A DNA stretch of 43,364 bases from contig JALWZT010000278.1 of NCBI GenBank assembly GCA_027002405.1, positions 1-43,364 of the forward strand. The letters run 5' to 3'. Numbering within the stretch: the first letter of the stretch is position 1; every line of letters begins with the position of its first letter. Both the position numbers and the translations under genes were made by a program. Shown one piece after another: positions 3,064-38,434 of the stretch. The stretch is from Anaerolineae bacterium. GTDB lineage: Bacteria; Chloroflexota; Anaerolineae; J102. The notes beneath the pieces are model-generated. The model saw only the letters and a list, made by a program, of their open reading frames with translations, had not been told where the DNA came from and made no database searches.

Positions 3064-3069
3064 GAGTTC

Positions 3070-5340: not shown

Positions 5341-5365
5341 TTACAAAACTGTTGGAATGCGACCA

Positions 5366-5409: not shown

Positions 5410-5456
5410 TCGATTTATAACATCCTTTCTCCCCTTTCCATGTAGGAGCGTGTCTT

Positions 5457-10087: not shown

Positions 10088-10363
10088 ATGTCCAAGATCG
10101 CCACAACCAAAATGTCATCCAAAGGTCAGGTCGTCATCCCCGAAGCCATCCGCAAGCAGCTCAATTTGGAGCCGGGAGAGCAATTCGTCGTTATGGCGGA
10201 AAGCGATGTCGTCATCCTCAAACGGATCACCCCGCCTACAATCGACGAATTCGAGCCCCTGCTTGCTCGCGCCCGGTTGGCCGCCGCGGAAGCCGGCCTG
10301 ACTCAAAAGGACGTTGAGGAGGCTATCCGGGAGGTGCGAAAGCGCGATGAAGGTCGTTCTTGA
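10088..10363 (+). CDS. AbrB/MazE-type antitoxin
   Basis: 91-residue DNA-binding antitoxin. The SpoVT-AbrB swapped-hairpin signature is KMSSKGQVVIPEAIRKQLNL followed by EPGEQFVVM. The C-terminal half, acidic and helical, is expected to wrap the toxin. The ATG at 10088 is preferred to that at 10082 because CGGAGG ends about 8 nt upstream of it. It overlaps the PIN gene by 17 bp, the usual coupled arrangement. It lies 53 bp after cydD. Confidence 0.88.
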   Translation: MSKIATTKMSSKGQVVIPEAIRKQLNLEPGEQFVVMAESDVVILKRITPPTIDEFEPLLARARLAAAEAGLTQKDVEEAIREVRKRDEGRS

Positions 10364-10754
10364 CACCAATGTGCTCATCTCGGGGATTTTCTTCGGCGGG
10401 CCTCCCCTGGAGATATTGGGGGCATGGAAAGATGGACGCATCGAGCTTCTGATTTCCAACGAAGTTCTGGATGAATATCAGCGCGTCGCCTGGAAGCTTG
10501 CAGAGAAACTGTCAGATGTTGATGTGGAACGCATTTTGCAGATCATCCGCGATCACAGCATCCTGGTGAGCACTTCTGGTGTTTCAGTTGCCGTTTGCAG
10601 CGATCCCGATGATGACAAGTTCATCGAGTGCGCCATTGCAGGTAACGCCGACGTCATCGTGAGCGGCGACAGGCATTTACTGGAAATCGGTATGTACGAA
10701 TCCACGCCCATCATCACGCCAAGAGCCTTTCTCGATCAATTCCTCGGCCAGTGA
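10347..10754 (+). CDS. PIN-domain toxin (COG1569-like)
   Basis: 135-residue putative endoribonuclease. The PIN start MKVVLDTNVLISGIF supplies the first metal-binding Asp. Further expected acidic residues are in LISNEVLDEY, CSDPDDDKFIECA and VIVSGDRHLLEI. These proteins cleave RNA with Mg2+ and are held inactive by the partner antitoxin. The start at 10347 is set by the PIN motif; a longer frame lacks a better site. cydC begins 13 bp after its stop, so toxin and cydC are probably on one mRNA. Confidence 0.88.
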   Translation: MKVVLDTNVLISGIFFGGPPLEILGAWKDGRIELLISNEVLDEYQRVAWKLAEKLSDVDVERILQIIRDHSILVSTSGVSVAVCSDPDDDKFIECAIAGNADVIVSGDRHLLEIGMYESTPIITPRAFLDQFLGQ

Positions 10755-12636: not shown

Positions 12637-15600
12637 TTAGAATGCCTCGACAGACTGCGAGACCACCACATCCTGCCAAAACGTCTGGCCCATGGCCGAC
12701 ATGGGATAGCGGCGCACTCGCGGTTTTAGCAACAGGTGATCCCGCTTGTAGATGAGAGGCAGGATGGGCGCTTCCTGCACCAGGATCTCCTCGGCCTGGC
12801 GGTAGCACGCCATGCGTTGTCCAGCACCGGTTAGGACGCGCGCCTGCCGCACCAGATCATCATAGCCCGCATGGCGCCAGGCAGGCCAGGCCCGGGCCCG
12901 GCTCACCCGCAAAAAGCTATCGGGATCGGGATAGTCCGCCACCCAGCCCAGGTTGATGATGTGGTAACGCCCGCGTCCCAACCGTGCCAGATACGCGGGC
13001 CAGTCCACGATCTCCGGCCGCAACGTCACCCCCAGGATCTGGCGCCACTGGGCTTGCAAAAAGCGGTTTCGCGGGGCCACGGCCTCGTAGACCAGGACAT
13101 GGAGGGGGGGCAGGCCACGGCCTTGGGGATAGCCCGCCTGGGCCAGCAGGCGCCGCGCGGCTTCCGGCTGGAAGGGGAGGGCGATGCTGGAAGCGTGTCC
13201 GGGCATCCCCGGCGGCGTCAGGCCCCCTGTGGCCGGTGTCCCATAGCCCTGCAACACCTCATCCGCCAACGCGCTGCGGTTGGTGGCCAGGACAAAGGCG
13301 CGACGCACCCGCGCATCATCGAAAGGCGGGCGGGTGACATCAAAGGCCAGGAAATGCGTTTCCAGGCTGGGACGGGTGATGTATTCGCTCCCATGCCGTT
13401 GCCGCACCTCTTCCCGCATCCCCGCGGGCATGTAGGTGACGCCCAGGATCTCCAGTTCATCCTCCTCGTACAGACGCCGTCGCGTGTCCCAGTCCTGCAC
13501 CAGTCGGAGGATCACGCGCTGCAAGTTGCCGGAGAAGCGGCCATGATACCGGGGATTGCGGGCCAGTTCGATGCGCTCGCCCTGCTGCCAGGTCTGCACC
13601 ACAAAAGCGCCGTTGCTCACCAGATGGGCATCCTGCGCCCATGCCGGGCCTTTTTCCTGCACGATGTGGCGAGGAACGGGGTACCAGGTGACATGGGTGA
13701 GCAATTGCGAGAAATAGCCCACCGGATGGGCCAATTCCACGCGCAGGGTGAAATCATCCAGCGCGCGCACGCCTACATCCTCCCTTTTTCCCTGGCCCTG
13801 ATGAAAGGCTCGTCCCCCGCGCAGATCGTATAGAAAGGATGCGGCCGGAGAACCGGTGGCAGGGTCCAAGACGCGCTTCCACGCGTATTCGAAATCGTGG
13901 GCGGTCACCGGCACGCCATCGCGCCAGCGCGCGTCCCTCCGCAGGTGAAAGATGAAGACGCGGCCAGCGTCGTGCACCTCCCACCTGCGGGCCAGGTCGG
14001 GGGTAATGCTCATATCGGGGCTTAGGGCCACCAGGCCGCTGAAAAGCTGGGCGATGAGGCAATCGGTGTGTGCATCGGGTGCGAACGCGGGGTCGAGCGT
14101 GAGAGGCTCCTGCCAGCGGACGCGTAGGGGGTTGGATGCAGGAGGCAGGGGTGCGCGTTGGGGGCGAGCCGTCGCGCGCTGCCAGTGGCGGAACGCCTCG
14201 TCGTAAGCCGCGCGGGCCTGGGCAAAGTCGAAGGCATTGTGATAGGTGAGGCCCAGCTTCATCAGGGCGCGGGCGGTCTTTTCCTCATCGTCCCCCTGCC
14301 GCAGATAATCCAGGGCCTGGCGATAATAGCTCACAGCCTCCTCATGGGCGTAGAGCAGCCGCGCTTCATCCCCTGCCTGCAAGAGGTAGGGGATCGCTTT
14401 TTGGGGGAGGTCGGCCTGCACCCAATGATAGGCCAGCAGGCCCGCTTGAGCTTCCCCTTGCCGTTCCAGGGCCTCCCCCACCTGCCGGTGTAATGCTCGT
14501 CGCCGCTCCGCCACCGTGGTTTCGTACACCACGGCCCGGATTTTGTCGTGGCTGAAGTCGTAGCAACCGGCCGTGGCTTGGGGTCGCACCAGATGCCGGG
14601 CCAGCCATTCCTCCACGCTGGCTGTCACTGTGGTGGGCGTTTCTTGCGCCGCGGCCTGCAGGAGCCCATCATCGAAGCTGCGTCCAATGACCGCGGCCAG
14701 GGTGAGCAGGCGTCGGGCCGGCTCGCTCAATCGGCCCACTCGTTGCAAGATCACATCCTGGACGCGATGGGGGATGGTATCCACCGAACGCCCTTCTTGC
14801 CAGCTCCCCTCGGTAGGGGCGAGTGCGCCCTCTTCTTGCAGCATATAGATGGTTTCGACCAGGAAAAAGGGATTGCCCTCGCTTTCCCGATAGAGCAGCT
14901 CCCCCAATGAGGAAGCCGCCTCGGACCCAACCAGCCAGCGGGCGATGTCGGATACAGCGGCAGGGGCCAGGGCCGCGAGTTCCAGTTCATCCACCAGGTG
15001 ATCCCGGCTCAATCCCTGTCGCAGGCGGGTGAGGTGGTGGCTCACCCCCACCTCTTCGGGCCGATAGGCACCAAGCAGCCACACCGGCACGGATTTCAGC
15101 CGCCGCGTGAGGTAATGGAGGAGGTCCAGGGTGGCGATATCCGCCCATTGCAGATCATCGAGGAAGAGGAGCACGGGGTGACGCGCGGCCAGGGTTTGTA
15201 AAAGGAGGGCGACCGCCTCGAATAGCCGCTGCCGCGCGGCCTCGCCGCTCACCTGGCGTGGCTGGGGCAGGTTTGGGTGGTGCTGGCGCAGTTCGGGCAA
15301 CAGGCGGGCCAGTTCGGCCAGCCAGACGGGTGAAAGAGCCCAATCGCTGGGGAATTCGACCTGGCGCCACAAACCGCGCAGGGCCTCGGCAATGGCCTGA
15401 TAGGGAACGTCGCCGCCGAATTCATAACAGCGCCCCTGCAGCACCCGCGCGCCCTGGGCCTTGACGTAGGCCATCATCTCCTCGGCCAGGCGGGTCTTGC
15501 CGATGCCCGCTTCCCCTGTGATGAGGCCCAGGCGGCCCTGGCCGCGGCGCGCCCTCTCCCACCACGAGGCCAGGGTGGCCCGCTCCTCTTGCCGGCCGCG

Positions 15601-16422
15601 CAGGGGCAGGCGCAAGGATGCAGGTGGCGGCGCATGCCAATCCGCGTCCTGCCAGGCCCGCAGACGTTCGTACAGAGCCGTGGTTTCGGGCATGGGCGCC
15701 ACACCCACCTCTTCCTCCAGTTGGCGGCGGCAGATGTCATACTGGGCCAGGGCCGCGCTGCGCTGGCCGGTCAGGGCCAGCAGCGTCATCACCAGCCGAT
15801 GCCCCTCCTCCCACCAGGGCTCGAGCTGCACCTGAGCGCGGGCGTACACCAGCGCCTGGTCGTAGTCTCCCCGTCGCATGAGATGAGTCGCCAGGCGGGA
15901 AAAGGCGACCAGGGCCTGCTCCCGCAGGGTTGCTGCGTGCCCGGCGCGCCAGGCATCGAATTCAGGCGCATCATCCAGGATCAAATCGGTGAGGAAGTCG
16001 CCCTCATAGAGGGCAACCGCCTTTTGTAGATGCGCGATGGCCCCGGTTACATCCCCCTTGCGCTGACAATGCGCCGCCTCTTCCATCTCGGCCTGAAATG
16101 TCCGCGCGTCCACCTGCACTCGGGCCCCTTCTCGCACCCCCACCGTGAGCCTGTCCTCCATCAGCAGATCGGGCGGCAGTCTGCGGCGCAGATGCCACAA
16201 GGTCTGGCGCAGATTGTGCCGCGCTTTCCTCTCGCTGCATCCGCCCCACAGCAGGCCGGCCACGCGGCCGCGAGGGTGTGGGCCGGGGTGCAAAAGCAGG
16301 TAAATGAGCAACGCCTGGGCCTTGCGCAGGGTGATGGTCTCCAGGGGCTGCTCGCCCACACGGATTTCCAGGCACCCCAACGTGCGCACCTCGAGGCATG
16401 CGGTCGCATCATCCGGTGCCAT
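12637..16422 (-). CDS. SARP/BTAD-ATPase regulator fused to a solute-binding protein domain
   Basis: 1261 residues, a large one-component regulator. About 10-95 is an OmpR-like winged helix. 97-255 is the bacterial transcriptional activator (BTAD) helical domain. 270-560 is a STAND/AAA-type ATPase with Walker A GEAGIGKTR (about 303-311) and Walker B VLLFLDDLQWAD (about 417-427). 640-750 holds TPR-like helices. From about 763 to the end is a full family-5 solute-binding fold (Dpp/Opp type): LTLDPAFAPDAHTDCLIAQL, LARRWEVHDAG, FHLRRDARWRDGVPVTAHDF, ARNPRYHG, FDDARVRRAFVLATNR and a C-terminal YRQAEEILVQEAPILPLIY. There is no signal peptide, so the binding domain is cytoplasmic and probably senses a ligand, as the SBP5-like domain of E. 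coli SgrR does. The target genes and ligand are unknown. Confidence 0.88.
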   Translation of the reverse strand: MAPDDATACLEVRTLGCLEIRVGEQPLETITLRKAQALLIYLLLHPGPHPRGRVAGLLWGGCSERKARHNLRQTLWHLRRRLPPDLLMEDRLTVGVREGARVQVDARTFQAEMEEAAHCQRKGDVTGAIAHLQKAVALYEGDFLTDLILDDAPEFDAWRAGHAATLREQALVAFSRLATHLMRRGDYDQALVYARAQVQLEPWWEEGHRLVMTLLALTGQRSAALAQYDICRRQLEEEVGVAPMPETTALYERLRAWQDADWHAPPPASLRLPLRGRQEERATLASWWERARRGQGRLGLITGEAGIGKTRLAEEMMAYVKAQGARVLQGRCYEFGGDVPYQAIAEALRGLWRQVEFPSDWALSPVWLAELARLLPELRQHHPNLPQPRQVSGEAARQRLFEAVALLLQTLAARHPVLLFLDDLQWADIATLDLLHYLTRRLKSVPVWLLGAYRPEEVGVSHHLTRLRQGLSRDHLVDELELAALAPAAVSDIARWLVGSEAASSLGELLYRESEGNPFFLVETIYMLQEEGALAPTEGSWQEGRSVDTIPHRVQDVILQRVGRLSEPARRLLTLAAVIGRSFDDGLLQAAAQETPTTVTASVEEWLARHLVRPQATAGCYDFSHDKIRAVVYETTVAERRRALHRQVGEALERQGEAQAGLLAYHWVQADLPQKAIPYLLQAGDEARLLYAHEEAVSYYRQALDYLRQGDDEEKTARALMKLGLTYHNAFDFAQARAAYDEAFRHWQRATARPQRAPLPPASNPLRVRWQEPLTLDPAFAPDAHTDCLIAQLFSGLVALSPDMSITPDLARRWEVHDAGRVFIFHLRRDARWRDGVPVTAHDFEYAWKRVLDPATGSPAASFLYDLRGGRAFHQGQGKREDVGVRALDDFTLRVELAHPVGYFSQLLTHVTWYPVPRHIVQEKGPAWAQDAHLVSNGAFVVQTWQQGERIELARNPRYHGRFSGNLQRVILRLVQDWDTRRRLYEEDELEILGVTYMPAGMREEVRQRHGSEYITRPSLETHFLAFDVTRPPFDDARVRRAFVLATNRSALADEVLQGYGTPATGGLTPPGMPGHASSIALPFQPEAARRLLAQAGYPQGRGLPPLHVLVYEAVAPRNRFLQAQWRQILGVTLRPEIVDWPAYLARLGRGRYHIINLGWVADYPDPDSFLRVSRARAWPAWRHAGYDDLVRQARVLTGAGQRMACYRQAEEILVQEAPILPLIYKRDHLLLKPRVRRYPMSAMGQTFWQDVVVSQSVEAF

Positions 16423-17310: not shown

Positions 17311-17354
17311 CTATCTTGCTTCCCGATCCCACCGCGAGTGCGCGGAGGAAAATC

Positions 17355-20300
17355 ATGTCACCCAAAACTTTGCATACCTGGCTTCAAGTCTTCCTCGTGC
17401 TCAGCCTGGTGCTGGGCGGCCTGGCATGGGCGCGGCCGGCCTACGCCTGGCCCCTGCCGCCGGCCGAGCGTCACCTGCGCGATGACCCCGACGTCGGGCG
17501 CGCTGCGCCGCCGGCGCCGCCAGGCCCGACGCCCCTTCATATCACCACCGAGGGAGGCGATGACAGCAGTGGCAGCAACAGAACGAACGGAAGCGGCCTG
17601 GACGCCGGCGATCCGGTGTCCGCCAACAACGGCGCCTATCACTTCGACATGCCCCTCCTCGCCCTGGGCGGGCCCATGAACCTGGGCTTCACCCTGCGCT
17701 ACCGCTCCGACTTCAACCAGGTGCTCTGGGCCGAAGCCCTGCCCATCCGTTTCTGGTGGAGCCCCTGGGAAGACCTGGAATGGGAGCGCTCTCCCGGTTT
17801 CACCTTTGTCACCGTCCAGATCGCCAACGGCGATGTCATCAGCTTCAAATGGGTGACCGACCACTGGGAACCGGGCGCGCCATTTATGCCCGGCGTCTAT
17901 CCCGTGCCCTGGTCGCTCCAGGAAACCGGCGACTATTTCTACCTGATGGACCCCATCGGCGAGCAGGTGCACATCTTCAAGAAGATCAACCAGGTGGGCC
18001 GCATCGAGCGCATCGTGGACCGCAACGGCAACCAGCTCATCTACGCCTACGCCACGGATGATACTCTCTTCCCCAGCCGGGTGGAGGACGGTCTGGGCCG
18101 TTCCCTGGATTTCACCTACCAGAAGTTCGGCAACTTCACCGGGCTGGTGCGGGTGACCGACCACGCCGGACGGCATGTGGATTTCACCTACGAAGAGCAT
18201 GGCGCGGACAACGAAAACGTCTGGACATTGCGCTCGATAACCGACTCCATGGGCCAGACCACGACCTTCCACTACACCTGGAAGGAGCGGGATGACCACC
18301 TGGTGAAGTGGCATCACCAGATCACCGCGGTGGAGCGGCCGGCCGGCAACACCCCCTACACCCAGGCCTACGAGATGCGCAACCTGGCTGGCTCCAACGC
18401 GTCCCGCGTCATCTCCCAGACCGACGCTTACAGCCACACCACCACCCTCACTTACGACCCCACTGCGGTCAAGGTGACGGAGACCCGTCCCGACGCCGCG
18501 ACCCAGGTCTACGAGCATTACGGCCGCCACAGCCCGCCCAAATCGCTCACCGATCCCACGGGCAAGACCATGCACTTCAGTCACGACGCGACCACCGACC
18601 GGCTCACCGGGGTCACCGACCGGCTCGGCGACGCCTCGCAAATCACCTATCATCCCCAGACGGGCAAGATCGCCAGTTGGACCGACGCCGAGGGCAAGAC
18701 CACCACCTACACCTACACGGCCCAGACGCAGACCTTCACCAACCCCCTCGCCACCACCGAGACGGTCGCCTTCACCTTCTACGATCTGACCCGCGTGGAC
18801 CATCCCGACGGCAGCCGCGAGACCTTCACCTACGACGCTCACGGCAACGTCCTCACCCGCACCGACGGGCTGGGGAACGTATGGCATTACACGTATAACG
18901 GCCGCGGCCAGTTGCTCACCGCCACCAACCCCGAAGGCGGCGTGACCACCTATACCTACAACGCGGACGGCACCCTGGCCTCCCGCACCGATTCAGACAC
19001 CGGCGTCACCACCTACGACTACGACGCCTACAAACGGCTCAGCGTCATCACCCGCCCCGGCGGCGCCACCGTGAACTTCACCTACGACCTGAACGACCGC
19101 CTGCTGACCCGCACCGACGAACTGGGCGATGTCACCACTTTCACCTACGACGCCAACGGCAACCGGGACACGGCGACCAATCCCCTGGGGCAGACCGTCA
19201 CCTACGCTCAGGATTTGATGGACCGCCTGAGCGGCGTCACCGACCCGCTGGGGCAGAGCAGCCACCGCACCTACGACGAGATGGGCCGGCTGGCTTCCTT
19301 CACCGACCGCAACGGCAACACCACGGCCTACGCCTATGCCCCCCGTGGCTGGTGCACCGGCATCACCGACCCGGCGGGCCATACCTGGACGACGGGCTAC
19401 GACGACGAAGGCGTGCCCACAGCCTTCACCACCCCCCTGGGCCGCACGACCGCTTTCCAGACCGACAACCTGGGCCGCACCACGGTCATCACCGACCCGC
19501 TGGGCGCGGCGACCGCCTTCACCTACGACGCCATGGGTCGCCTGACTTCGACCGCCGACCGCATGGGCCGCGCCACGACCTACGCCTACGACGACGCCGG
19601 CCGGCTGGTGGGTGTGACCCGCGCCGGCCTAGGTTCAGCGACCTACACGCGGAACGACCTGGGCCTGCTGAGCCGCATCACCGACCCCCAGGGCAAGCAT
19701 TGGGACTTTGGCTACTCGGCCATGGGCCGCCTGACCTCCCACACCGACCCCCTGGGCCGCCGATGGGCCTACGCCTACGACAATCGCGGCCGTCTCTCCC
19801 AGATCACCTATCCCGACAGCACGACCACGGCCTACACCTACGACGCGGCAAGCCGGGTGACGCAGATCGCCTATTTCGGCGGGCCCACGTTGGACTACAC
19901 CTACGACGACGCCGGACGCTTGCTGACGGCCGACGGCATCGCTTTCACCCGTGACGCCCGGGGGGACATCACCGACAGCCGGGACGGGAGCGCTTCGTTC
20001 GGGGCCACCTACGACAAGGGCCGACGGGTCAAAACGGTGACCTACGACGGCCAGGCCACCGTCACCTACACCTACGACGGGCGGAACCTGCTGACCCGCG
20101 TGGAGGACGACCTCAGCGGGGCCTGGATGACCTTCGCCTACGACGATGACGGCCGGCTGACCGAGATCGCCCGCTCCAACGGCGTGAGCACCACCCTCGC
20201 CTACGACGATGCCGGCCGCGTGACCCGCATCCAGGATGGTGGGGCGAACGGCGGTTCGCCCTTACAAGCCGACCAGCGATACACCCTCAACGCCGAGGGC

Positions 20301-21446
20301 GAGCCGACCCACGTGGCCCGCACCCTGCCCCTGAATCCGCCGCCCGCTCTGCCTTCGCTGAACCTGACCTACGACGATGCGAACCAGATCAGCGCTTCCG
20401 GCTACGCCTACGACGCCCGCGGCCGCCAGACCGCCGCACCGGGCAAAACCTTCGCTTATGACGGCGCCTCCCGCCTGACCTCCGTCAGCGCGGACGGCAG
20501 CACGGCCGCGTTCACCTACAACGGCCTGGGCGACCTGCGCACCCGCACCGTGGACGGCATCACGACGCACTACTACCACAACTACGCCCTGGGCCTGAAC
20601 CCCATCGTGGCGGAAAAAACGGGTGCGGCCTACGATCGCTTCTACGTCTACACCCCCGGCGGCGCGTTGCTGTATTCGATAGAGCCGGGCAGCGGCGCGG
20701 TGCGCTTCTACCACTTTGACCGTCTCGGCTCCACCCTCTTCCTCACCGACGGGGCCGGCGCGGTGAGCGACGCCTACGCCTACGACCCCTACGGCAACCT
20801 GCTGGGCCACACTGGCACGAGCGACCAGCCCTTCACCTACGTGGGGCGCTACGGCGTACGCTACGAGCCGGTGGGCGCGCTCTACGACATGCGCGCCCGC
20901 GTCTACGATCCGGCCACGGCCCGTTTCCTGACCCGCGACCCGGTCTGGCCGGCGCTGCGCGACCTGCGCAGTCTGAACCCCTACGCCTACGCGGCCCAGA
21001 GCCCGCTATACTACATTGATCCCCTGGGGATGAAACTGCAGAGGATACGGGTGCGGATTTTCTTATATTGGCGAGGGAGCCCTTGGAAGCTGTTCCGGCT
21101 TTTGTATCAACTTTTTCAGTTTGCGGCTGGCCCAGGAGATGCAACATCAGTGAGCTTGTCAGGAGGCGGCGGTGGAGTCATTCAGCCCTGGGAGGCTGGG
21201 GCGGCGGGAGCGCAGTTTACGGTTGGCCCAGAAGATGTAATATCAATGATCTTGTCAGGAGGCGGCGGTGGAGTCATTCAGCCCTGGGAGGCTGGGGCGG
21301 CGGGAGCGCAGTTTACGGTTGGCCCAGAAGATGTAATATCAATGATCTTGTCAGGAGGCGGCGGTGGAGTCATTCAGCCCTGGGAGGCTGGGGCGGCGGG
21401 AGCGCAGTTTACGGTTGGCCCAGAAGATGTAATACCACCGCCATAG
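17355..21446 (+). CDS. Secreted RHS/YD-repeat protein with tandem Gly-rich tail
   Basis: 1363 residues. The ATG at 17355 has GGAGGA 5 nt upstream and opens a signal peptide (hydrophobic about 8-25, likely cut after AYA near residue 32). After a linker comes the DUF6531-like start DPVSANNGAYHFDMPLLAL, then more than twenty YD repeats (TYDANGNRDT, YDAMGRLTS type) and the RHS core end, RFLTRDPVWPALRDLRSLNPY and DPLGMK. YD repeats form a shell that encloses a C-terminal polypeptide, often a toxin. Here the part after DPLG has a basic/aromatic stretch and then three copies of a 32-residue unit (GGGGGVIQPWEAG...), with no toxin domain that I recognise. No immunity gene is evident. Confidence 0.92.
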   Translation: MSPKTLHTWLQVFLVLSLVLGGLAWARPAYAWPLPPAERHLRDDPDVGRAAPPAPPGPTPLHITTEGGDDSSGSNRTNGSGLDAGDPVSANNGAYHFDMPLLALGGPMNLGFTLRYRSDFNQVLWAEALPIRFWWSPWEDLEWERSPGFTFVTVQIANGDVISFKWVTDHWEPGAPFMPGVYPVPWSLQETGDYFYLMDPIGEQVHIFKKINQVGRIERIVDRNGNQLIYAYATDDTLFPSRVEDGLGRSLDFTYQKFGNFTGLVRVTDHAGRHVDFTYEEHGADNENVWTLRSITDSMGQTTTFHYTWKERDDHLVKWHHQITAVERPAGNTPYTQAYEMRNLAGSNASRVISQTDAYSHTTTLTYDPTAVKVTETRPDAATQVYEHYGRHSPPKSLTDPTGKTMHFSHDATTDRLTGVTDRLGDASQITYHPQTGKIASWTDAEGKTTTYTYTAQTQTFTNPLATTETVAFTFYDLTRVDHPDGSRETFTYDAHGNVLTRTDGLGNVWHYTYNGRGQLLTATNPEGGVTTYTYNADGTLASRTDSDTGVTTYDYDAYKRLSVITRPGGATVNFTYDLNDRLLTRTDELGDVTTFTYDANGNRDTATNPLGQTVTYAQDLMDRLSGVTDPLGQSSHRTYDEMGRLASFTDRNGNTTAYAYAPRGWCTGITDPAGHTWTTGYDDEGVPTAFTTPLGRTTAFQTDNLGRTTVITDPLGAATAFTYDAMGRLTSTADRMGRATTYAYDDAGRLVGVTRAGLGSATYTRNDLGLLSRITDPQGKHWDFGYSAMGRLTSHTDPLGRRWAYAYDNRGRLSQITYPDSTTTAYTYDAASRVTQIAYFGGPTLDYTYDDAGRLLTADGIAFTRDARGDITDSRDGSASFGATYDKGRRVKTVTYDGQATVTYTYDGRNLLTRVEDDLSGAWMTFAYDDDGRLTEIARSNGVSTTLAYDDAGRVTRIQDGGANGGSPLQADQRYTLNAEGEPTHVARTLPLNPPPALPSLNLTYDDANQISASGYAYDARGRQTAAPGKTFAYDGASRLTSVSADGSTAAFTYNGLGDLRTRTVDGITTHYYHNYALGLNPIVAEKTGAAYDRFYVYTPGGALLYSIEPGSGAVRFYHFDRLGSTLFLTDGAGAVSDAYAYDPYGNLLGHTGTSDQPFTYVGRYGVRYEPVGALYDMRARVYDPATARFLTRDPVWPALRDLRSLNPYAYAAQSPLYYIDPLGMKLQRIRVRIFLYWRGSPWKLFRLLYQLFQFAAGPGDATSVSLSGGGGGVIQPWEAGAAGAQFTVGPEDVISMILSGGGGGVIQPWEAGAAGAQFTVGPEDVISMILSGGGGGVIQPWEAGAAGAQFTVGPEDVIPPP
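21117..21436. repeat. 96-bp tandem repeat in the RHS gene end
   Basis: The unit starts recur at 21161, 21257 and 21353 (AGGAGGCGGCGGTGGAGTCA), exactly 96 bp apart, with essentially no mismatch. A diverged part-unit (21117-21160) precedes them, and the last unit is cut short by the stop codon. As 96 is divisible by three, copies can be gained or lost without a frameshift. Near-identity suggests recent expansion. Confidence 0.9.
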
Positions 21447-21887: not shown

Positions 21888-21932
21888 CGCCAGGCGCGAA
21901 GATTAAAGATTAAAGACTAAAGATTATCTGAA

Positions 21933-22034
21933 GGGATAATCGGACAATGAAGACGCACCCAGCTTCCACTCAACCCTACCTTGCGGTCACGCGCCTGTGC
22001 GACCACGACCACCCCCTTATTCGGGAGCGGGCCG
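21933..22034 (+). pseudogene. Duplicated 5' end of the transglutaminase gene
   Basis: This 102-bp block matches 22781-22882 at about 95% (offset 848 bp) and covers 14 bp of leader, the ATG (21947) and 29 codons (MKTHPASTQPYLAVTRLCDH and on), after which homology stops. The frame is abandoned within a few codons. It lies just outside the vapC end of the vapBC module. Upstream, 21901-21928, are GATTAAA tandem units. Confidence 0.85.
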
Positions 22035-22066
22035 CGTCTATTCAACGGAAATTCGTATTCACACCA

Positions 22067-22453
22067 TTAGGCAATCAAGATGTCGGTCTGGGGAAAGTCG
22101 TTGCCAACACACAGCAACGGCATGTCCCTTTCCCGCGCCACGGCGTAAGCCATGCAGTCTCCAAAGTTCAAACGCGCCGGATGTCGGCCTTTGCCATACT
22201 CGATCCAGGCGCCAATGGCCAGATGCGCATGGGTGGCGCTGAAAGGAATAATAGTGACATCGGCTTCCTCAAGAAAACGCATCAGGGGCCCACGCATATC
22301 CTCTCCCAATCGCGCTGATAAGAGAATGCCGGTTTCCACAACGGTCGGCGCGCCGATGCCTACCTCATCAGCCGAGGCCAGCTTTTGCAACAATGCTTCG
22401 TAACCGGGCTCTCGGAAAAAAATGGCGACGATAGCAGAGGAGTCGAGAATCAT
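22067..22453 (-). CDS. vapC: VapC-type PIN toxin ribonuclease
   Basis: 128 residues. The PIN start MILDSSAIVAIFFREPGYE gives the first catalytic Asp. The Glu in APTVVETGILLSARLG and the NFGDCMAYAVARERDMPLLCVGNDF block supply the remaining acidic site. VapC toxins cut tRNA or rRNA and are inhibited by VapB. The start overlaps the end of vapB by 4 bp. The module sits between two copies of the 5' end of another gene, which suggests it arrived as a cassette. Confidence 0.93.
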   Translation of the reverse strand: MILDSSAIVAIFFREPGYEALLQKLASADEVGIGAPTVVETGILLSARLGEDMRGPLMRFLEEADVTIIPFSATHAHLAIGAWIEYGKGRHPARLNFGDCMAYAVARERDMPLLCVGNDFPQTDILIA

Positions 22454-22722
22454 ACTCCCTGATCTCCGAGACCCAGGATCGCCTCTTCTTCCTCGCGAGA
22501 AAGTCGTTTCCCTCGCTGCTCCGCGGGGATAAGCGGCCAGACTTCCTCTTCGAGGAAAGCGCGCAAACGCTTCGCCCGCTCGCTCTGCCCGACTTGCGCC
22601 GCAAGCCGCCGGTAACGGTCATCCAGAGCCTTGCGCAGGGCTTCGGTCCTCGTTTCACCGGTGGCCTGCACGATGCCATCGAGAAGGCGCTCTACATCCT
22701 GGTTGTCAATCGTAATAGGCAT
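22450..22722 (-). CDS. vapB: VapB-type (PSK family) antitoxin
   Basis: 90 residues from the ATG at 22722, with CAGGAGG about 6 nt upstream; a TTG two codons earlier is less likely. The MPITIDNQDVERLLDGIVQA start and the TGETRTEALRKALDDRYRRL helix are those of Rv0623/PSK-type VapB proteins, a short ribbon-helix-helix-like DNA-binding head. The C-terminus is expected to cover the VapC active site. It precedes vapC with a 4-bp overlap, and TAAAAT about 25-30 nt upstream may be its -10 box. Confidence 0.9.
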   Translation of the reverse strand: MPITIDNQDVERLLDGIVQATGETRTEALRKALDDRYRRLAAQVGQSERAKRLRAFLEEEVWPLIPAEQRGKRLSREEEEAILGLGDQGV

Positions 22723-22794
22723 GTTCAACCTCCTGAACTACATCTATTTTACCATCATTCATGTCGCATCGACCAAAGGAGGGATGATCGGACA

Positions 22795-23505
22795 ATGAAG
22801 ACGCACCCAGCTTCCACTCAACCCTACCTTGCGGTCACGCGGCTGTGCGACCACGACCACCCGCGCATCCGGGAGCGGGCCGTCGCTCTCATCGCGGGCA
22901 TCGAGGAGCCGCGGGAGAAGGCCTTGCGCATCTTCGCCTGGGTGCGCGATCACGTCCGCTTCGGCCTGGCCTTCTCCCGCTCCACAGCCTCGCAGACCCT
23001 GCAGCGGGGCTATGGCGAGTGCGGCACCAAGACCAACGCGCAGGTGGCCCTGCTGCGGGCCGCGGGCATCCCTGCCCGCTTCCGTTGGGTGCGGGCGCGC
23101 AGCGACGTGCTCCACGGCCTCGTCCTTGACTTCCTCTACAAACAGTTGCCCCCCGTCGTTTCCCACTTCTGGGCCGAATGCTATCTCGACGGCCGCTGGG
23201 TCTCCTGCGAGGCCCTGCTGGACCGGCCCCTCTACGAAGGCATGCTCGCGGCCGGGCTGATCACCCGGGAGCAGGTCCCCACCATCGACTGGGACGGCCA
23301 CAGCGACCTGGTGCTCCTGCGCCCCTGGATCACCGAAGACCTGGGGCATTTGCCCGGCTACGACGAGGCCCTGGCCGCGCTCATTCGCAGCCAGGAGGGC
23401 GTCCCGCCGCTATGGTTCGAGCGGCTCATCGCGCCCTGGTTTTATCCCCTCAACCTGCGGCCCTCGGATCGGCTGCGGCAGCGGGCGAGGATCGAGGCGC
23501 CATGA
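22795..23505 (+). CDS. Transglutaminase-like cysteine protease-fold protein
   Basis: 236 residues. The catalytic Cys is in GYGECGTKTNAQVALLRAAG, the His in VVSHFWAECYLDGRWVSCEA, and the acidic third member is probably the Asp of YLDGRW or just after. This is the transglutaminase core fold (TGc/DUF553-like), whose bacterial members are mostly peptidases or amide hydrolases. There is no signal peptide, so it is cytoplasmic. The start at 22795 is supported because the same ATG and leader are copied at 21947; AAAGGAGGG lies 13 nt upstream. Its stop overlaps an ATGA that may have begun a further gene now lost in repeat DNA. Confidence 0.8.
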   Translation: MKTHPASTQPYLAVTRLCDHDHPRIRERAVALIAGIEEPREKALRIFAWVRDHVRFGLAFSRSTASQTLQRGYGECGTKTNAQVALLRAAGIPARFRWVRARSDVLHGLVLDFLYKQLPPVVSHFWAECYLDGRWVSCEALLDRPLYEGMLAAGLITREQVPTIDWDGHSDLVLLRPWITEDLGHLPGYDEALAALIRSQEGVPPLWFERLIAPWFYPLNLRPSDRLRQRARIEAP

Positions 23506-24624: not shown

Positions 24625-26165
24625 ATGTCCCAGTCCTTACCCAGAATCACCGAGCAAATAATTCGCGATCGAGTGGGGAGTCAGTCCTTTGCCCGGGGTC
24701 AGCGATATTTCAAAAGCAGTCACCACGAACGGCAGTTCGCCGATACCGACGAAAATGCCTCGCGGCCAGGGCGGCGTGACTCGTATTCCGTATTGCGTAT
24801 TGCGTAACGACTGGACGGAATACGGAATACGCAATACGAACCTTTGCCGCCTCGCCCAACGTCGGCCTGGCGATCCGCAATCCTAATCCTGATCCGAATC
24901 CTATTTACATAGCAGCGCTATCTTCGACGCCCGCCGCGAGGGCATGACGTTGAAAGCGTTGTGCCAGGGTTCGGCCGCTTCCCCTTATCGGGTGGAGGTC
25001 ACCTTTTCCCAGAAGGGCATTGCCAGCACCAACTGTTCCTGTCCCGTGGGCGCGGGCGGGTATTGCAAGCACGTGGCCGCGCTGCTTCTCACCTGGCTGC
25101 ATGAGCCCGAGAAGTGAGGTGCACGATCCTGGACAGCGGCAGGCCGCCATACGGCGTTTGTATGAGATGGTGGCGTGGGATATCGACCAAGGCGGATATG
25201 GAGCGGGCGATGGGGCGTATCTCGCGTTGGTGGAAGAAACGACGCCAGAGGAACGGGCCATGGTCGCTGAGTGGGCGCGGGAGGCGTTGGAGGAGTTCAA
25301 GAGCAAGGAGGGCTTCTCGACCCAATGGCGAATGGAAGCCTTGGGCGGGCTGTTGATTGATTTGCTGAAGGATACGCTGGATGATGAGGCGTATCTGCAA
25401 TTGTGTCGGGAGACGGGCCAGCAGAAAGCGTTGGTTGTAAAGTTGGCGGCGTTGGGACGCCTGGATGAAGCCCGACGCGAAGCCGCTTCCCTCTCCGACT
25501 ACGAACTCCTGATGGTGGCACGACGTATCGATGAGACGACAGGTCAGCGGAAGCTGGCCCGCGAGCTGCTCTCCATGCGGGCGGACTCAACCAGCGATAC
25601 GCGCATTCTCAGTCAGTTGCTGGCATGGGCACGGGAAGATGGCGACACCGATGTTTTATTCCGCCTGGCCCGACGCCGCTTCGAGATACATCCCGATATG
25701 GAAAGCTATCGGGCATGGCGCGACATCGCACACGGGCGCCAAGATTGGGAAACCGTGCGAGGGGAGATCCTGCGCAGCCTGGAGCAGAAGGGGGCGTGGC
25801 AGCTTTTGGTGGAGATCTTGCTGGATGAAAAGGCTTATGATGACGCCATCGCGGCTTTCGGCTCCTGGCGACAGCGGGCGTCTTGGGGTAGATATCATCT
25901 CATGCTCATGGTACGCGTGGCCGACGCGCTGGCCGAGGCGCGGCCGCAGGCCGCGATGGAAATGTATGGGGAAGCCGTTGAGCAACTGGTGGCCCAGCGC
26001 AAGCGCCCCAGCTACGCCGAAGCGGCCCAGATCCTCAAGCGCATCCGCGATATCCTGATCCGAGAGGGGAAAGCCCAGCTTTGGGACGATTTGATCGCAT
26101 CTTTTCGCCAGCAGTACAAACGTCTCCCCGCGTTGCAGGATGAGTTGAATAAGGCAGGGCTCTAG
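24625..26165 (+). pseudogene. Decayed paralog of the SWIM zinc-finger gene
   Basis: The start (MSQSLPRITEQIIRDRVGSQ) matches the intact gene at 3070. After RYF the frame is broken by a ~190-bp repeat element (24720-24910). Homology resumes with AIFDARREGMTLKALCQG, through the SWIM site (CSCPVGAGGYCKHVAALLL, zinc ligands kept). At about 25116 roughly 430 bp present in the intact gene (about 3357-3783) are deleted and the frame shifts at a TGA. The rest, about 25140-26165, stays open to the same LQDELNKAGL end. The downstream ORF of 381 residues could still be translated but has an out-of-frame N-terminus. Confidence 0.9.
24720..24910 (+). mobile_element. 191-bp structured element inserted in the SWIM pseudogene
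   Basis: Flanked by AGCAG on both sides (24715-24719, 24911-24915). Removing the element plus one AGCAG restores an in-frame sequence, RYF-KSSAIFDARREG, against RYF-EDGAIFNARREG in the paralog, so this is an occupied site with a known empty site. Left end: TCACCACGAAC-ggca-GTTC hairpin, then CGCCGATACCGACGAAAATG. Core: GTATTCC/GTATTGC units facing their complement across a small loop (24780-24840). Right end: GCCTCGCCCAACGTCGGCC, AATCCT units, CCTATTTACAT. There are no terminal inverted repeats and no ORF. Confidence 0.85.
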
Positions 26166-27845: not shown

Positions 27846-28085
27846 CCCATCGCCGATATCGAGGAAAATGGGAACGCAGATTTCCGCAGATGTTCGTCAT
27901 GCTGAGCGACCGAAGGGAGCGAAGCATCTAGCGAGCGAAGCGAGCGCCATGCCGCGGTTTTTTGCGCTTCGCTAGATTTCCTTCGGCTGCGCTCAGGACA
28001 TGCCTCGATCGCTGCACTCCCTCGGAATGACGTCGCAAGGCGCTACTGATTACTGATAACTGATCACTGATTACTCTATTTACAA
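27846..28085. repeat. Composite repeat with GTCAT...ATGAC inverted core
   Basis: Starts CGCCGATATCGAGGAAAATG (27850-27869; the element-head word without its hairpin), then CGCAGATTTCCGCAGAT, then the long inverted repeat GTCAT...ATGAC (27896-28031), then ACTGATTACTGATAACTGAT units (28047-28073) and the tail word CTATTTACAA, immediately left of the AGCAG that flanks the next element. It may be an older, altered member of the same family. Confidence 0.65.
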
Positions 28086-28090
28086 AGCAG

Positions 28091-28277
28091 TCACAACGAA
28101 CGGCAGTTCGCCGATACGAATGAAAACGCCTCGCGGCCAGGCTGGCGGGCCGTGAAACGTGATGCGTGATGCGTAAGGTTATCACGTTTCACGTTTCACG
28201 CATCACGCCCGTTGCCGCCTCGCTCAACGTAGGCCTGGCGATCTTAATCCTAATCCTGATCCGAATCCTATTTACAT
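28091..28277 (+). mobile_element. 187-bp structured element upstream of nadD
   Basis: Flanked by AGCAG (28086-28090 and 28278-28282). Left end: TCACAACGAAC-ggca-GTTC then CGCCGATACGAATGAAAACG. Core: GTGATGC units opposite CGTTTCAC/GCATCAC units, able to form a hairpin (28153-28206). Right end: GCCTCGCTCAACGTAGGCC, AATCCT units, CCTATTTACAT. The right-hand AGCAG continues as AGCAGGAGACCTTC-ATG, so the element ends inside the Shine-Dalgarno region of nadD. Confidence 0.8.
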
Positions 28278-28291
28278 AGCAGGAGACCTTC

Positions 28292-28909
28292 ATGGCCCGC
28301 ATTGGTATTTTGGGGGGCACCTTTGACCCCGTACATTTTGGACATTTGATCTTGGCGGAGACTGCCCGGGACACGCTACGGCTGGACCGGGTGTATTTTG
28401 TCCCCGCGGGGGACCCTCCTCATAAACATGGTCAGGTGGTGGCCCCGGCCCGGGATCGTATCGCCATGCTGCAAATGGCCATTGATGATAATGACGCGTT
28501 TGCCCTGAGCCTCATCGACGTGAATCGCGAGGGCCCGGACTACACCGCGGATATGCTGACCATCGCCCGCGAAACCCTGCTGCAGCCGGGCGATGATCTG
28601 TGGTTTTTGATGGGCCTGGATTCGGTCATCGATTTCCCCAACTGGCACGATCCGGAACGGATCCGGCAACTGGCCCGCCTGGCCGCGGCTACCCGGCCCG
28701 GGTATGATATCGACTGGGCTCCCTTGGAGGAAGCCTTGCCCGGCATCAGCCACGAGGTCACCTTGCTTCCCATGCCCGGGGTAGATATTTCCTCCAACAA
28801 CCTGCGGCGTCGCATTCTCCACGGCAGCAGCATCCGCTACCTCACCCCCGAATGCGTGCGGGAATATATTTACAGCCATGGGCTTTATCAACACGCGTTC
28901 TTTCCCTAG
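28292..28909 (+). CDS. nadD: Nicotinate-nucleotide adenylyltransferase
   Basis: 205 residues. Transfers AMP from ATP to nicotinate mononucleotide, giving deamido-NAD in NAD synthesis. The nucleotidyltransferase signature is GILGGTFDPVHFGHLILAE (HxGH-type His pair). FVPAGDPPHK is the substrate loop, WFLMGLDSV lies in the middle, and ISSNNLRRRI near the C-terminus is the usual ISS.xiR motif (T replaced by N). AGGAG lies 7 nt upstream of the ATG and directly abuts the inserted repeat element, so promoter or leader changes are likely. Downstream on the other strand is rsmG. Confidence 0.96.
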   Translation: MARIGILGGTFDPVHFGHLILAETARDTLRLDRVYFVPAGDPPHKHGQVVAPARDRIAMLQMAIDDNDAFALSLIDVNREGPDYTADMLTIARETLLQPGDDLWFLMGLDSVIDFPNWHDPERIRQLARLAAATRPGYDIDWAPLEEALPGISHEVTLLPMPGVDISSNNLRRRILHGSSIRYLTPECVREYIYSHGLYQHAFFP

Positions 28910-32138: not shown

Positions 32139-32259
32139 TCAGTAATCAGTAATCAGTAATCAGTGATCAGTAGGCATGCTCAACGCATCATGCCCATTGC
32201 TGCCTCGCCCAACGTGGGCTTCGAGATGCTTTTGCAAACGAACGCAACGCTATTTACGG
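32139..32259 (+). repeat. ATCAGTA tandem units and an element tail
   Basis: About five AATCAGT units begin at the DsbA-like stop codon (to 32172). Then comes a right-end half of the ~190-bp element: GCCTCGCCCAACGTGGGCTT, GCAAACGAACGCAACGC and CTATTTACGG, ending at the first AACAG of the array. No left end is present for it. Confidence 0.65.
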
Positions 32260-32264
32260 AACAG

Positions 32265-32658: not shown

Positions 32659-32849
32659 TCACCATGGACGACTGTCCACCGATACGAGTGAAAACGCCTC
32701 GCAGCCAGGCTGGCGGACCGTGAAACGTGATGCGTGATGCGTGATGCGTAAGATGCTCACGTTTCACGTTTCACGCATCACGCCCATTGCTGCCTCGCCC
32801 AACGTGGGCTTCGAGATGCTTTTGCAAACGAACGCAACGCTATTTACGG
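32659..32849 (+). mobile_element. Array element 3 (191 bp)
   Basis: Between AACAG at 32654-32658 and 32850-32854. Left end TCACCATGGAC-gact-GTCC then ACCGATACGAGTGAAAACG. Core of GTGATGC units facing GTTTCAC/GCATCAC units (32720-32783), like the nadD copy. Right end GCCTCGCCCAACGTGGGCTT and CTATTTACGG. The last AACAG runs into AACAGGAGAAATTC-ATG of the amidohydrolase gene. Confidence 0.75.
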
Positions 32850-32863
32850 AACAGGAGAAATTC

Positions 32864-34870: not shown

Positions 34871-35107
34871 CCCCGGAGCCCTGCTCGGGCACCACGAGTC
34901 ACCAAGGGCCGATACCGAGGAAAATGGGAACGCAGATAATCTTTAGTCCGCTCTAAACCTCCGAGCTACGGATGCGAAGCCCTACGGGCTGGCCACGGGA
35001 GTGCTACTGAACACTGAACACTGAACACTGATTACTGATGACTGATGACTGATGACTCCTGCTCGCGCCTGGCCTCGGCCTGAGAATCCTAATCCTCAAT
35101 CCTAATC
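34871..35107. repeat. Repeats between the amidohydrolase and the HlyD gene
   Basis: Element-head word GGCCGATACCGAGGAAAATG without hairpin (34908-34927), a CCTCCGAGCTACGGATGCG/GGCCACGGGAG block shared with 26215 and 36850, ACTGAACACTGA and ACTGATGACTGATG units (35009-35055), and TCCTAATCC units ending CCTATTTAC, which overlaps the HlyD stop codon on the minus strand. Confidence 0.6.
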
Positions 35108-36442
35108 CTATTTACGGAGTAGCACATCCGCGGGCATACCGGGCTTCAACCGCCCTTCCTCATTTGGCAGGCGGAGCTTGACCAGAAACACCATATCCCC
35201 TCGCTCCTCGGGGTCCAGCACATTGGTGGGCCGAAACTGAGCTTCTGGGGCGATATAAAAAACCTGGGCCTGGAAGGCCTGTCCAGGGATGGCCAACACC
35301 TCCACCGGCAGGGTCTCCCCCAGATGGACGCGATGGAGGTCCCTGGCCGGGACATACACCCACACCTCCATGGTGCGGGTGTCGGCCAGGGTGATGAGCG
35401 GCTGACCAGGCTCTACCATCTCGCCGGGTTCTATCAGACGGGATTGCACCTGCCCGGACGCGGGCGCGGGGATGCGCAGGCGGGGTTGCTGCCAGCGGGC
35501 CAGGTCCAACGCGGCCTGGGCCTGCTGCACCTGGGCTTCGGCCACGGCCACAGCCTCGGGCTGAGGTGCCGCGGTTTGGGCTGCGTACTGGGCCAGAGCC
35601 ACCTGAAGCCCGGCCTGGGCCACCTTCACACCCCCCTCTGCCTGATGCACCTGGGCCAGCAGAGCCAGGGGGTTTTCCCGGGTCTGCTTGAGCAGCTTCA
35701 GGGTTTCGCGCAGGCCCTGGAGCCGCGCCTGCGCGGCCGCCAGATTGGCTTCGGCCGCGGCCCGTTGCTCTTCTAGAATCCGGACCCGATACTTGCCCTC
35801 CCGGGACCCATCGGTGCGGGCATCCACCAAAAGCGCGTCGATCTGATGGATATCCGCCTGGGCCGCGTCTACCTGAGCCTGGGCCACGGGGATCAAAGCC
35901 GCGGTTTGATCGATTTGGGCATCCAGGGTCAGGGGGTTTTCCCACACATTGCGGGCATAATCCAGGTTGCGCCGGGCATTGGCCAGGGCCGCCCGGGCCG
36001 CATCCACCTGGCTTTGTGCGACCCGTTGGGTTTCGGGCCCGGGCCCCGCGGCCGCGGCCTCACGCGCGGCCTGGGCCGCGGCCAACCCTTCTTCCGCGGC
36101 CGCGATCTGCGCCTGCACATCGGTGGGGTCCAGGCGGATCACCACCTGATCCTTCTCCACCCAGTCCCCTTCCTCCACCAGCACGGCTACAGCCCGACCA
36201 CGGACTTCACTCATGACGTGGATGGGCCGAGCCTCCAGGGTACCGTAGAGCCGTACCTGGGCGGATTCCCCCGGGCCGGCGGGTTGAAAACGAGCCTGTA
36301 ATTGCTCTAAAGGCTGGGGAGGAAGCCCCCATTGCAACCAGGTCTGATGGACCTCCTGGGGGATGAAAATGAGCGCGGCCACAAAAAGGATGGCGCCCAC
36401 CACAAGGATGACAATAAGGATGGAAACAAGCTGTTTGAACAT
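35108..36442 (-). CDS. HlyD/RND-type membrane fusion protein
   Basis: 444 residues from the ATG at 36442, chosen because it directly opens a membrane anchor (FKQLVSILIVILVVGAILFV). The lipoyl/hairpin order is typical: ARPIHVMSEVRGRAVAVLVE with EGDWVEKDQVVIRLDP, a long Ala/Gln-rich coiled coil (about 110-290), then RIPAPASGQVQSRLIEPGEM and the beta-barrel end GRLKPGMPADVLLRK. It bridges an inner-membrane transporter to the outside. It lies last in the ABC-2 cluster but 610 bp of repeats separate it from the other adaptor. The final RK-stop is coded by the end of a repeat element. Confidence 0.88.
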   Translation of the reverse strand: MFKQLVSILIVILVVGAILFVAALIFIPQEVHQTWLQWGLPPQPLEQLQARFQPAGPGESAQVRLYGTLEARPIHVMSEVRGRAVAVLVEEGDWVEKDQVVIRLDPTDVQAQIAAAEEGLAAAQAAREAAAAGPGPETQRVAQSQVDAARAALANARRNLDYARNVWENPLTLDAQIDQTAALIPVAQAQVDAAQADIHQIDALLVDARTDGSREGKYRVRILEEQRAAAEANLAAAQARLQGLRETLKLLKQTRENPLALLAQVHQAEGGVKVAQAGLQVALAQYAAQTAAPQPEAVAVAEAQVQQAQAALDLARWQQPRLRIPAPASGQVQSRLIEPGEMVEPGQPLITLADTRTMEVWVYVPARDLHRVHLGETLPVEVLAIPGQAFQAQVFYIAPEAQFRPTNVLDPEERGDMVFLVKLRLPNEEGRLKPGMPADVLLRK

Positions 36443-37054
36443 GGTCGGTATCTCGAATGGGGAAGCGGATGACGCAGATGCGTGGCAAGGGGCAGGTGTG
36501 CATGAGACCTCGGAGGGTCTGCGCAGACCTCCGAGGTCTGGGGCCACCACGCCCGCCCGGCGATGAATTGATACTGTTGGCAAACTCCATACAGGCTGCT
36601 GGGCGCCTTGGCCCCGCCGACTCGAAGTCGGGGCTGGGGGCCTTTGGCCGCCTGTCTGCCTGCGCAGACAGGTCCAACCGGGCGGAAAACATGTCCCCGA
36701 AGGGGGACATGCGGCGGAACGCCCTCAGACCTGAATTTATTCGGCGTACTCGCGCAGTAAACCAACAGTATCATGAATTCGCCGGGCTATAGAACGGCGC
36801 CGGATAATTCCGGCTAGCCCCCGCAGGGGCGCTGTTTCCTCCGCTCGGAGCTAAAACCTCCGAGCTACCCTTGCGAAGCCCTGCGGGCTGGCCACGGGAG
36901 CCCAAGGGGCTTTGTACCCGTAGCCCGAGGATTCAGTTCAGCCTCGGGCGCCAAGGAACTGAACACTGATTACTGATAACTGATCACTGATTACTCCTGC
37001 TCGCGCCTACCCTCGGCCTGACAATCCTCAATCCTCAATCCTCAATCCTCAATC
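36443..37054. repeat. Hairpin-rich intergenic mosaic between the two HlyD genes
   Basis: A near-perfect 33-bp palindrome at 36506-36538 (GACCTCGGAGG...CCTCCGAGGTC with one extra G). Then hairpins GCCGGA/TCCGGC (near 36792), GCCCC/GGGGC, GCTCGGAG/CTCCGAGC, AGCCC/GGGCT and GCCCGAGG/CCTCGGGC (to about 36948). Then CTGATTACTGATAACTGAT units (36964-36997) and CAATCCT units (37021-37062). No gene is supported. Confidence 0.6.
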
Positions 37055-38434
37055 CTAATCCTGCTCCTCTTTCCGGAGCAGCACATCCGCGGGCAGGCCG
37101 GGGCGCAGGTGATCATCCGGGTCTTCCACCTGCAGGGTGATGGCATAGACCACCGCGGCCCGTTCGGCCACATCCTGGGACTGGCGCATGGTGTATTCGG
37201 GCTCATCGGAGATGGTGAGGACCCGGGCGTGGTAGGTTTTGCCCGGAGCGCTATCCACCAACAAAGGCAGGACCTGGTCCGGATAGAAGCGGTCGATCTC
37301 GCCAGCAGGCGCGTAGATGGTGAGGGTCAGATGATCGGGCCGGGTCAGCCGCATGAGCTGTTGACCAGGGCCGATGACTTCGCCCTGAACGAAGAAGAGC
37401 TCCTGCAGCACCCCGTCCATGGGGGCCAGGATGCGGGTTTTGCGCAGGGCCGTGGCCTGGGCCTCCCGTGCGGCCCGGGCCTGGGCCACCCGAGCCTCCG
37501 CGGCCGCGATCTGCTCGTCACTGGGCCCGGCCTGGACGGCCTCCAGCGCGGCCCGGGCCTGGTCCAACGCGACCGCGGCCTGGTCCCGCGCGTTCTGCGC
37601 GGCCACCACCTGGGCCTGGGCCTCTTGCGGGTCCTGACGCTGCTTGAGCAGATCATCCAGCGCGGATTGGGCCTGAAGCACCGCGTTTTGGGCTTGTTTG
37701 GCCTCGCTCCAGGCTTTCCAGGCCCGTTGACTGGCGGCATTCCATTCCCGATGCGCCTCTTGCTTCTTTTCCGGCGGCGCGTCCACAGTGATCACCCGGC
37801 CATCGGGCAGGGTGACGGTCCGTTTGGCGGCCAGGTCCTGCACAATCTCCCCCCACATCTGGGCTTCCAGGTCAGCGGCCCGGGCCTGATGTTGGGCCGC
37901 GCGGGCATAAGCCTGAGCTTCTTGCAAGGAAGCCCGGGCTTGCGCGATCTGCACATCCAGATCCTGGGGATGATCCCGTTGAGCCCTGGCATCTTGCAAT
38001 GCCTGTTCGGCCGCGTCGAGAGCGGCCTGGGCCTGGGCCACCTGAGCCTGGGCCAACGCCACATCCTCTGGCCGCACCGCGGCCTTCAGGCGGGCCAATT
38101 CGGCCTCGGCCAGGGCCACCTGGGCATCGGCCTGGGCCAGTTGCAAACGGATGAGCGAGTCATCCAGTCTGGCCACCACCTGGCCCGCGTGGACCGGGGC
38201 TCCTTGTGCGACAGGGAGCTCCAGAATACGGCCGCCGACTTCGGGCGCGAGGATCACCGATTCTGCTTCCAGGAACCCGGTGAAACGAAGGGTCGTCGCG
38301 GTCTCGGCCCGCGCCTGCCGGCATCCTGCCAGGAAAAGAGGGAGGAGAAAAAGGAAGGTGAGGGTGAACAGAGAAAAGGATCGTGTTTCAGCCGATCCAA
38401 CCAGGGTGGCATCAAGATGGAGGCGTTTTGACAT
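37055..38434 (-). CDS. HlyD-type adaptor lipoprotein (YbhG-like)
   Basis: 459 residues. The N-terminal LTFLFLLPLFLAGC is a lipoprotein signal with the lipid-attached Cys at about residue 38. Then the lipoyl half ILAPEVGGRILELPVAQGAP, a very long Ala/Gln/Glu coiled coil (about 85-330), TRILAPMDGVLQELFFVQGE and the barrel end LRPGLPADVLLRKEEQD. It matches the adaptor of YbhFSR-like ABC-2 exporters. The start at 38434 overlaps the ATPase gene by 23 bp; one at 38449 is also possible. The last codons lie in repeat-like DNA, as in the other HlyD gene. Confidence 0.88.
   Translation of the reverse strand: MSKRLHLDATLVGSAETRSFSLFTLTFLFLLPLFLAGCRQARAETATTLRFTGFLEAESVILAPEVGGRILELPVAQGAPVHAGQVVARLDDSLIRLQLAQADAQVALAEAELARLKAAVRPEDVALAQAQVAQAQAALDAAEQALQDARAQRDHPQDLDVQIAQARASLQEAQAYARAAQHQARAADLEAQMWGEIVQDLAAKRTVTLPDGRVITVDAPPEKKQEAHREWNAASQRAWKAWSEAKQAQNAVLQAQSALDDLLKQRQDPQEAQAQVVAAQNARDQAAVALDQARAALEAVQAGPSDEQIAAAEARVAQARAAREAQATALRKTRILAPMDGVLQELFFVQGEVIGPGQQLMRLTRPDHLTLTIYAPAGEIDRFYPDQVLPLLVDSAPGKTYHARVLTISDEPEYTMRQSQDVAERAAVVYAITLQVEDPDDHLRPGLPADVLLRKEEQD

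Follow-up and report, generated by a model that had tools for sequence, protein, structure and literature searches.

The vapBC locus described here raises the question of how a toxin-antitoxin pair comes to lie between two copies of the 5' end of an unrelated host gene, one copy truncated and the other at the head of the intact gene. The whole stretch of DNA analyzed (the window; 43,364 nucleotides of contig JALWZT010000278.1 from a bacterium of the class Anaerolineae) had received a first-pass annotation in which this arrangement was noticed and attributed either to a cassette that enters a gene and carries or recreates its 5' end, as integrative elements do, or to a tandem duplication that captured vapBC.

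The vapBC insert and its flanking repeats

A repeat search recovered two direct repeats of 103 nt, offset by 848 and identical at 97 of 103 positions (94%), one on either side of vapBC (Table 1). The duplication given in the first-pass annotation was thereby confirmed with the same ends; its starts, 21933 and 22781, each fall one base inside those found by the repeat search. Alignment of the copies bore out that each consists of the leader, the start codon and 29 codons, and the transglutaminase gene downstream is indeed intact. The six mismatches leave exact runs of 6, 55, 20, 1, 0, 2 and 13 nt, whereas in 200 surrogates of the surrounding 5 kb, generated with a first-order Markov model, no exact repeat exceeded 16 nt. 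Five of the six mismatches are in the coding part, four of these five at third codon positions (chance 0.045), and homology between the copies ends abruptly at either edge.

Table 1. Features of the vapBC/transglutaminase locus, by position in the window
Feature	Positions	Strand	Domain match
A/T-rich 7-mer repeat stretch, adjoining copy 1 on its left	21894-21931		
Copy 1, truncated transglutaminase gene start: RBS region, start codon ATG (21947) and 29 codons	21932-22034	+	
Insert, 745 bp, holding vapBC only	22035-22779	-	
vapC, PIN-domain toxin, 128 aa	22067-22453	-	PF01850, E 9e-15
vapB, PSK_trans_fac (Rv0623-like) antitoxin, 92 aa	22450-22728	-	PF07704, E 1.3e-12
Copy 2, same segment as copy 1, at start of intact transglutaminase gene	22780-22882	+	
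Intact transglutaminase-like gene, 236 aa	22795-23505	+	Transglut_core

The insert has a GC content of 56% against 69% in the transglutaminase gene. The antitoxin gene lies directly upstream of the toxin gene in one operon, the two overlapping by 4 bp, and vapB and the transglutaminase gene are divergent neighbors with starts 66 bp apart. A PIN toxin with conserved acidic residues, preceded by a small, overlapping gene for a DNA-binding antitoxin of the PSK_trans_fac type, is the arrangement of the VapBC family, to which the pair is predicted to belong and from which nothing unusual sets its proteins apart. Residues D4, E40, D99, D119 and D124 of VapC are invariant in nine aligned sequences (the window VapC and eight homologues), and VapC therefore looks intact. 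NCBIfam returned no match for the four proteins submitted, and the sole result from PADLOC was a weak match of VapB to BrxA (E 0.0027).

A site-specific integrative element that brought along a new 5' end to restore its target gene would leave a truncated 5' end on one side of the insert and a complete one on the other, as is seen here. However, the insert holds vapBC and nothing else: no integrase or transposase was found among its genes by ORF and domain search, nor were terminal inverted repeats found at its two ends by the repeat search. A fixed attachment site is not apparent either, as repeat length and target gene vary among the comparable loci described below, and the roughly 102-bp block, which the first-pass annotation had proposed to look for elsewhere, has no second occurrence in a sequence search of its own assembly. 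The other 15 matches in that genome are 23-40 bp long and all fall to the 7-mer repeat stretch beside copy 1. We regard an integrative element as the least probable of the origins considered here.

The window contains several other repeats. Short A/T-rich 7-mer tandem repeats, together with intergenic repeats that are dispersed in this genome, occupy 21894-21926, 24706-24915, 28042-28294, 35020-35143 and 36958-37102, with related matches at 15 places, and the last 88 bp at the right contig end (43277-43364) repeat an internal dispersed repeat at 24786-24873 exactly and in inverted orientation. Direct repeats with short spacing are present at 221-300 and 470-549 (80 bp, 100%) and at 32183-32264 and 32773-32854 (82 bp, 99%). 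Three tandem copies with 96-bp spacing and 94-95% identity (21117-21437) lie at the 3' end of an RHS-repeat gene at 17316-21446. A single ORF of 1261 aa at 12637-16422 has matches to BTAD/AAA ATPase regulator domains as well as to a family 5 solute-binding protein.

The transglutaminase gene and its site in relatives

The transglutaminase gene was found in none of eight congeners and in 8 of 396 genomes of the class (E 1e-12, own genome included), one of them close. Nucleotide synteny with the six congener contigs compared starts at 26384, before obgE, and there is none upstream. Because the gene is missing from the eight congeners and synteny begins only there, the block of RHS gene, vapBC and transglutaminase gene looks like a variable region. 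The closest relative of the gene, in a genome of another family of the class (G218), stands among different neighbors and lacks both vapBC and a second 5' end; when used to ask which copy is ancestral, it has the Leu of copy 1 at one site and the AAAGGAG leader motif of copy 2.

A first scan of genome contigs returned no relatives, and a second, with an alignment as query, returned 11 loci, mostly archaeal. The transglutaminase relatives L065-L074, at 37-50% identity and chiefly from Thorarchaeota and Lokiarchaeota assemblies, suggest that the gene family may have been widely transferred. Among the congeners searched, no relative carries the window locus, whether empty or filled, and because no relative with an empty locus was found, insertion is not demonstrated at the window.

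Direct repeats around other PIN-domain pairs

Other PIN-domain loci bear on how the window arose. The sample comprised 152 PIN-domain matches in 11 genomes of the family (65 rows in a first set and 87 in a later set), and a match was counted when a direct repeat (50 nt or longer, E <=1e-8, starts 400-1500 apart) had one copy on either side of it; this criterion was fixed after the first four cases were already known. Seven of the 152 matches were counted, namely the window, L132, L149, L041, two in L199 and L274. In a control of 598 kb, 38 of 5063 positions, which were not size-matched to genes, gave the same result (~0.75%), as did 13 of 1593 positions in the flanks of PIN loci (~0.8%; 12 of 100 place-fetched loci excluded). 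Without the window the count is 6/151 (P 0.0012). The later 87 rows alone, as a replicate set, give 3/87 (P 0.03), or 2/86 (P 0.14) when counted by locus, and the strict gene-end cases besides the window (L132, L041, L274 and one in L199) give 4/151 (P 0.03). Detection is lower at some of the loci, which lie near contig ends or have flanks of only 1500 bp. The enrichment of tight direct repeats around PIN pairs is thus weak to moderate. The six control regions inspected held no truncated-end inserts; their repeat pairs consisted of paralogous genes, intraprotein repeats and dispersed repeats. A second PIN-domain match in the window, weak (E 1.8e-6), lies at 10353-10688 between two ABC-transporter genes.

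At least four other loci share the order of truncated gene end, toxin-antitoxin pair and intact gene, and to this extent the first-pass idea of a cassette inserted with its target gene kept whole holds up, as an insertion-like shape that recurs around other toxin-antitoxin pairs. In the case of L132, which is in the same genome as the window, a Phd-PIN pair is flanked on one side by an intact tyrosine-recombinase gene and on the other by a fragment (122 bp) of the same gene's 3' end that is 79.5% identical to the intact copy. Four congeners have the recombinase, and in all four both the pair and the fragment are absent behind it. In a tree the copies are not sisters: the intact copy is nearest to G006 rather than to the fragment (support 0.85, from 122 bp). 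Of 20 sites where the copies differ and the consensus is clear, the consensus base is retained by the intact copy in 14 and by the fragment in 6. The L132 copies thus split at about the species level, which points to an old event or to one copy from another lineage.

A direct-repeat scan of nine loci with vapBC homologues was carried out, in which L041 stood out. Its order is A, a DUF433/DUF5615 pair, B, A', vapBC and B' with an intact dehydrogenase gene, where A is a 102-bp segment within a DUF6807 gene and B (77 bp) is the 3'-terminal part of an alcohol dehydrogenase gene. B is joined directly to A', and the units A-B and A'-B' hold different toxin-antitoxin pairs. This layout is what single-crossover entry by a circularized donor fragment A'-vapBC-B would be expected to give. 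At E 1e-90 the alcohol dehydrogenase gene was found in no other genome among 20 of the family, so that these offer no empty site.

At L274, in genome G007, two Phd-PIN pairs follow hisB, the first decayed and the second intact, with a 5' fragment of hisH separating them and intact hisH coming last; we take the gene to be hisH from its sequence and its place beside hisB, the Pfam match itself being GATase. The host-gene repeat of 105 bp is 95% identical, whereas antitoxin identity is 47% across an alignment of 38 amino acids, and because the two pairs are different alleles L274 is not a plain tandem duplication. Both here and at L041, two different pairs are parted by near-identical host-gene fragments, which a plain tandem duplication cannot yield and which single-crossover integration of a circularized donor fragment could produce.

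The remaining cases match the pattern more loosely, and the seven are not all of one kind. At L199, in genome G015, the 3' end of a membrane-protein-like gene without a Pfam match is present twice (119 bp, 92%), with a PIN pair between the copies; the neighborhood has 2-kb tandem duplications that include another PIN pair, and a further degraded copy. One of these duplications, at 2990-6316 of that locus, is 97% identical and comprises the membrane-protein-like gene and a PIN pair. L149 has two adjacent PIN pairs, which share the first part of the antitoxin and its upstream region (281 bp, 96%) and differ afterwards. Other candidates were set aside. The 230-bp repeats of L046 enclose apparent RHS-core pieces, as judged from ORFs, with vapBC outside them; the 127-bp repeat of L135 is a contig end and is also outside the census spacing; and L133, L143 and L163 fail in spacing or length.

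The L199 neighborhood, with its 2-kb tandem duplication including a PIN pair and its degraded copy, shows the kind of event by which the window could instead have arisen, namely tandem duplication of a segment with the gene and vapBC, after which most of one copy decayed. Copy 1 is also the A/T-richer one (GC 0.62, against 0.66 in copy 2), as a decaying copy would be. On the other side, the capture of vapBC by tandem duplication, as the first-pass annotation had it, should have given two whole units, and what is found is one unit and 103 bp, with no second vapBC and no longer remnant of the gene. Nor would duplication alone suffice at L041 and L274, where each unit carries its own, different pair. 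We consider tandem duplication unlikely at the window, though not negligible.

Proposed origin of the window locus

The repeats, the insert, the intact gene, the comparable loci and the weak-to-moderate enrichment are the observations to be accounted for. With roughly even confidence, we propose that vapBC, as an addiction-type module, was inserted next to the transglutaminase gene and that a long stretch of the target was duplicated in the process, most probably by way of a circularized donor fragment and a single crossover. A related strain would have supplied a DNA fragment with vapBC and the first ~30 transglutaminase codons, and this fragment would have been circularized by end joining and would have entered by one homologous crossover in the common ~100 bp. 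The target gene would remain intact on the side of copy 2, and copy 1 would be left on the other side as a nonfunctional 5' remnant, with both the left and the right copy being recipient/donor hybrids. The left edge of the repeat, just before the RBS, would mark where the donor and recipient leaders diverge, and the right edge, at codon 29, would mark the point at which the donor fragment was ligated. A reverse crossover through the repeats would delete vapBC, and selection by addiction against revertants that lose it could explain why the repeats persist. For the window we infer all of this, from the donor fragment, its circularization and the single crossover to stabilization by addiction and the activity of VapBC.

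An identical product at the window would be expected from linear foreign DNA that entered by homology-facilitated illegitimate recombination, with one homologous end and an illegitimate join inside the target gene. Passages of PMC5361080 propose such a route for the gain of effector-immunity modules in Vibrio cholerae. According to the relevant part of PMC3240628, however, such events are generally accompanied by deletions, and this route also leaves the B/A' join of L041 unexplained; we judge it decidedly unlikely.

The divergent orientation of vapB and the transglutaminase gene, with starts so close together, would suit an origin in which vapBC already stood next to the gene and template switching copied the 103-bp gene segment behind vapC. 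This would leave unexplained both the coincidence with toxin-antitoxin inserts elsewhere and the joint absence of pair and fragment at the L132 site, and it seems to us highly improbable. We think only slightly better of an assembly artefact that merged two strain variants, which is very unlikely. The 4.3-Mb source assembly is fragmented into 363 contigs and has 4.2% contamination, but the longest exact run between the copies is 55 nt against an assembly k of 127 (suggested by one contig end that repeats exactly 127 nt, a single case), so that the copies should not tangle, and structures of this type are also present in genomes that were assembled independently.

The donor-fragment origin proposed for the window may extend further. 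Tentatively, and with more doubt than confidence, we suggest that type II toxin-antitoxin pairs could spread among relatives without a mobile element of their own, in circularized donor fragments that would enter by one crossover beside a host gene, stack next to older pairs and be retained because a reverse crossover between the flanking repeats would be lethal, with truncated host-gene ends as their lasting footprint.

Comparison with known systems

Insertion with long target duplication was reportedly described for restriction-modification systems by Nobusato et al. in 2000. Some of these systems insert with long, variable target duplications on the order of 100 bp (in passages of PMC3874152), with an example in Helicobacter pylori (in part of PMC1643837) and a further description in a section of PMC3031569. 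The literature searched, which amounts to passages of a few papers, held no description of such insertion by toxin-antitoxin pairs, and the fixation of horizontally acquired pairs is called not yet understood in the pertinent passage of a 2009 review (PMC2654758). With a recognizable footprint, such fixation could be counted in genomes.

Other systems resemble the window in part. In E. coli conjugation, cut DNA entered the chromosome mainly by re-circularization and one crossover, and 56 of 60 clones had a partial duplication of the target-gene end, 109-950 bp long in the 14 that were sequenced (as given in passages of PMC3240628). Foreign DNA thus lies beside a partial duplication of a target-gene end in both cases, although a laboratory plasmid and a selected marker were used in the part of that work cited and the window copies are 6% diverged. 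T6SS/Rhs effector-immunity displacement arrays, as portrayed in passages of PMC5361080, likewise have two-gene toxin modules added beside resident ones via a common flank; the effectors there are secreted, whereas the common flank at the window is an unrelated host gene.

The closest likeness is to the restriction-modification insertions, which share with the window a small addiction-type module between direct repeats that come from the target, vary in length and measure about 100 bp. The window has these target-derived repeats with neither a transposase or integrase nor terminal inverted repeats, and repeat length varies across loci. It differs in its cargo, a type II toxin-antitoxin pair, and in its host, of the class Anaerolineae and not Helicobacter. 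Some of the comparable loci differ further in their stacked alleles and donor-fragment join, and an empty site is seen at L132 only, not at the window. The window therefore works like an insertion with long target duplication and, with vapBC as its insert, is not a member of that class in the original restriction-modification sense. The junctions at L041 and L274 suggest by what specific recombination route a pattern known from restriction-modification systems since 2000 could arise, and the footprint at the window appears to be of that known kind, with the toxin-antitoxin cargo as a variant.
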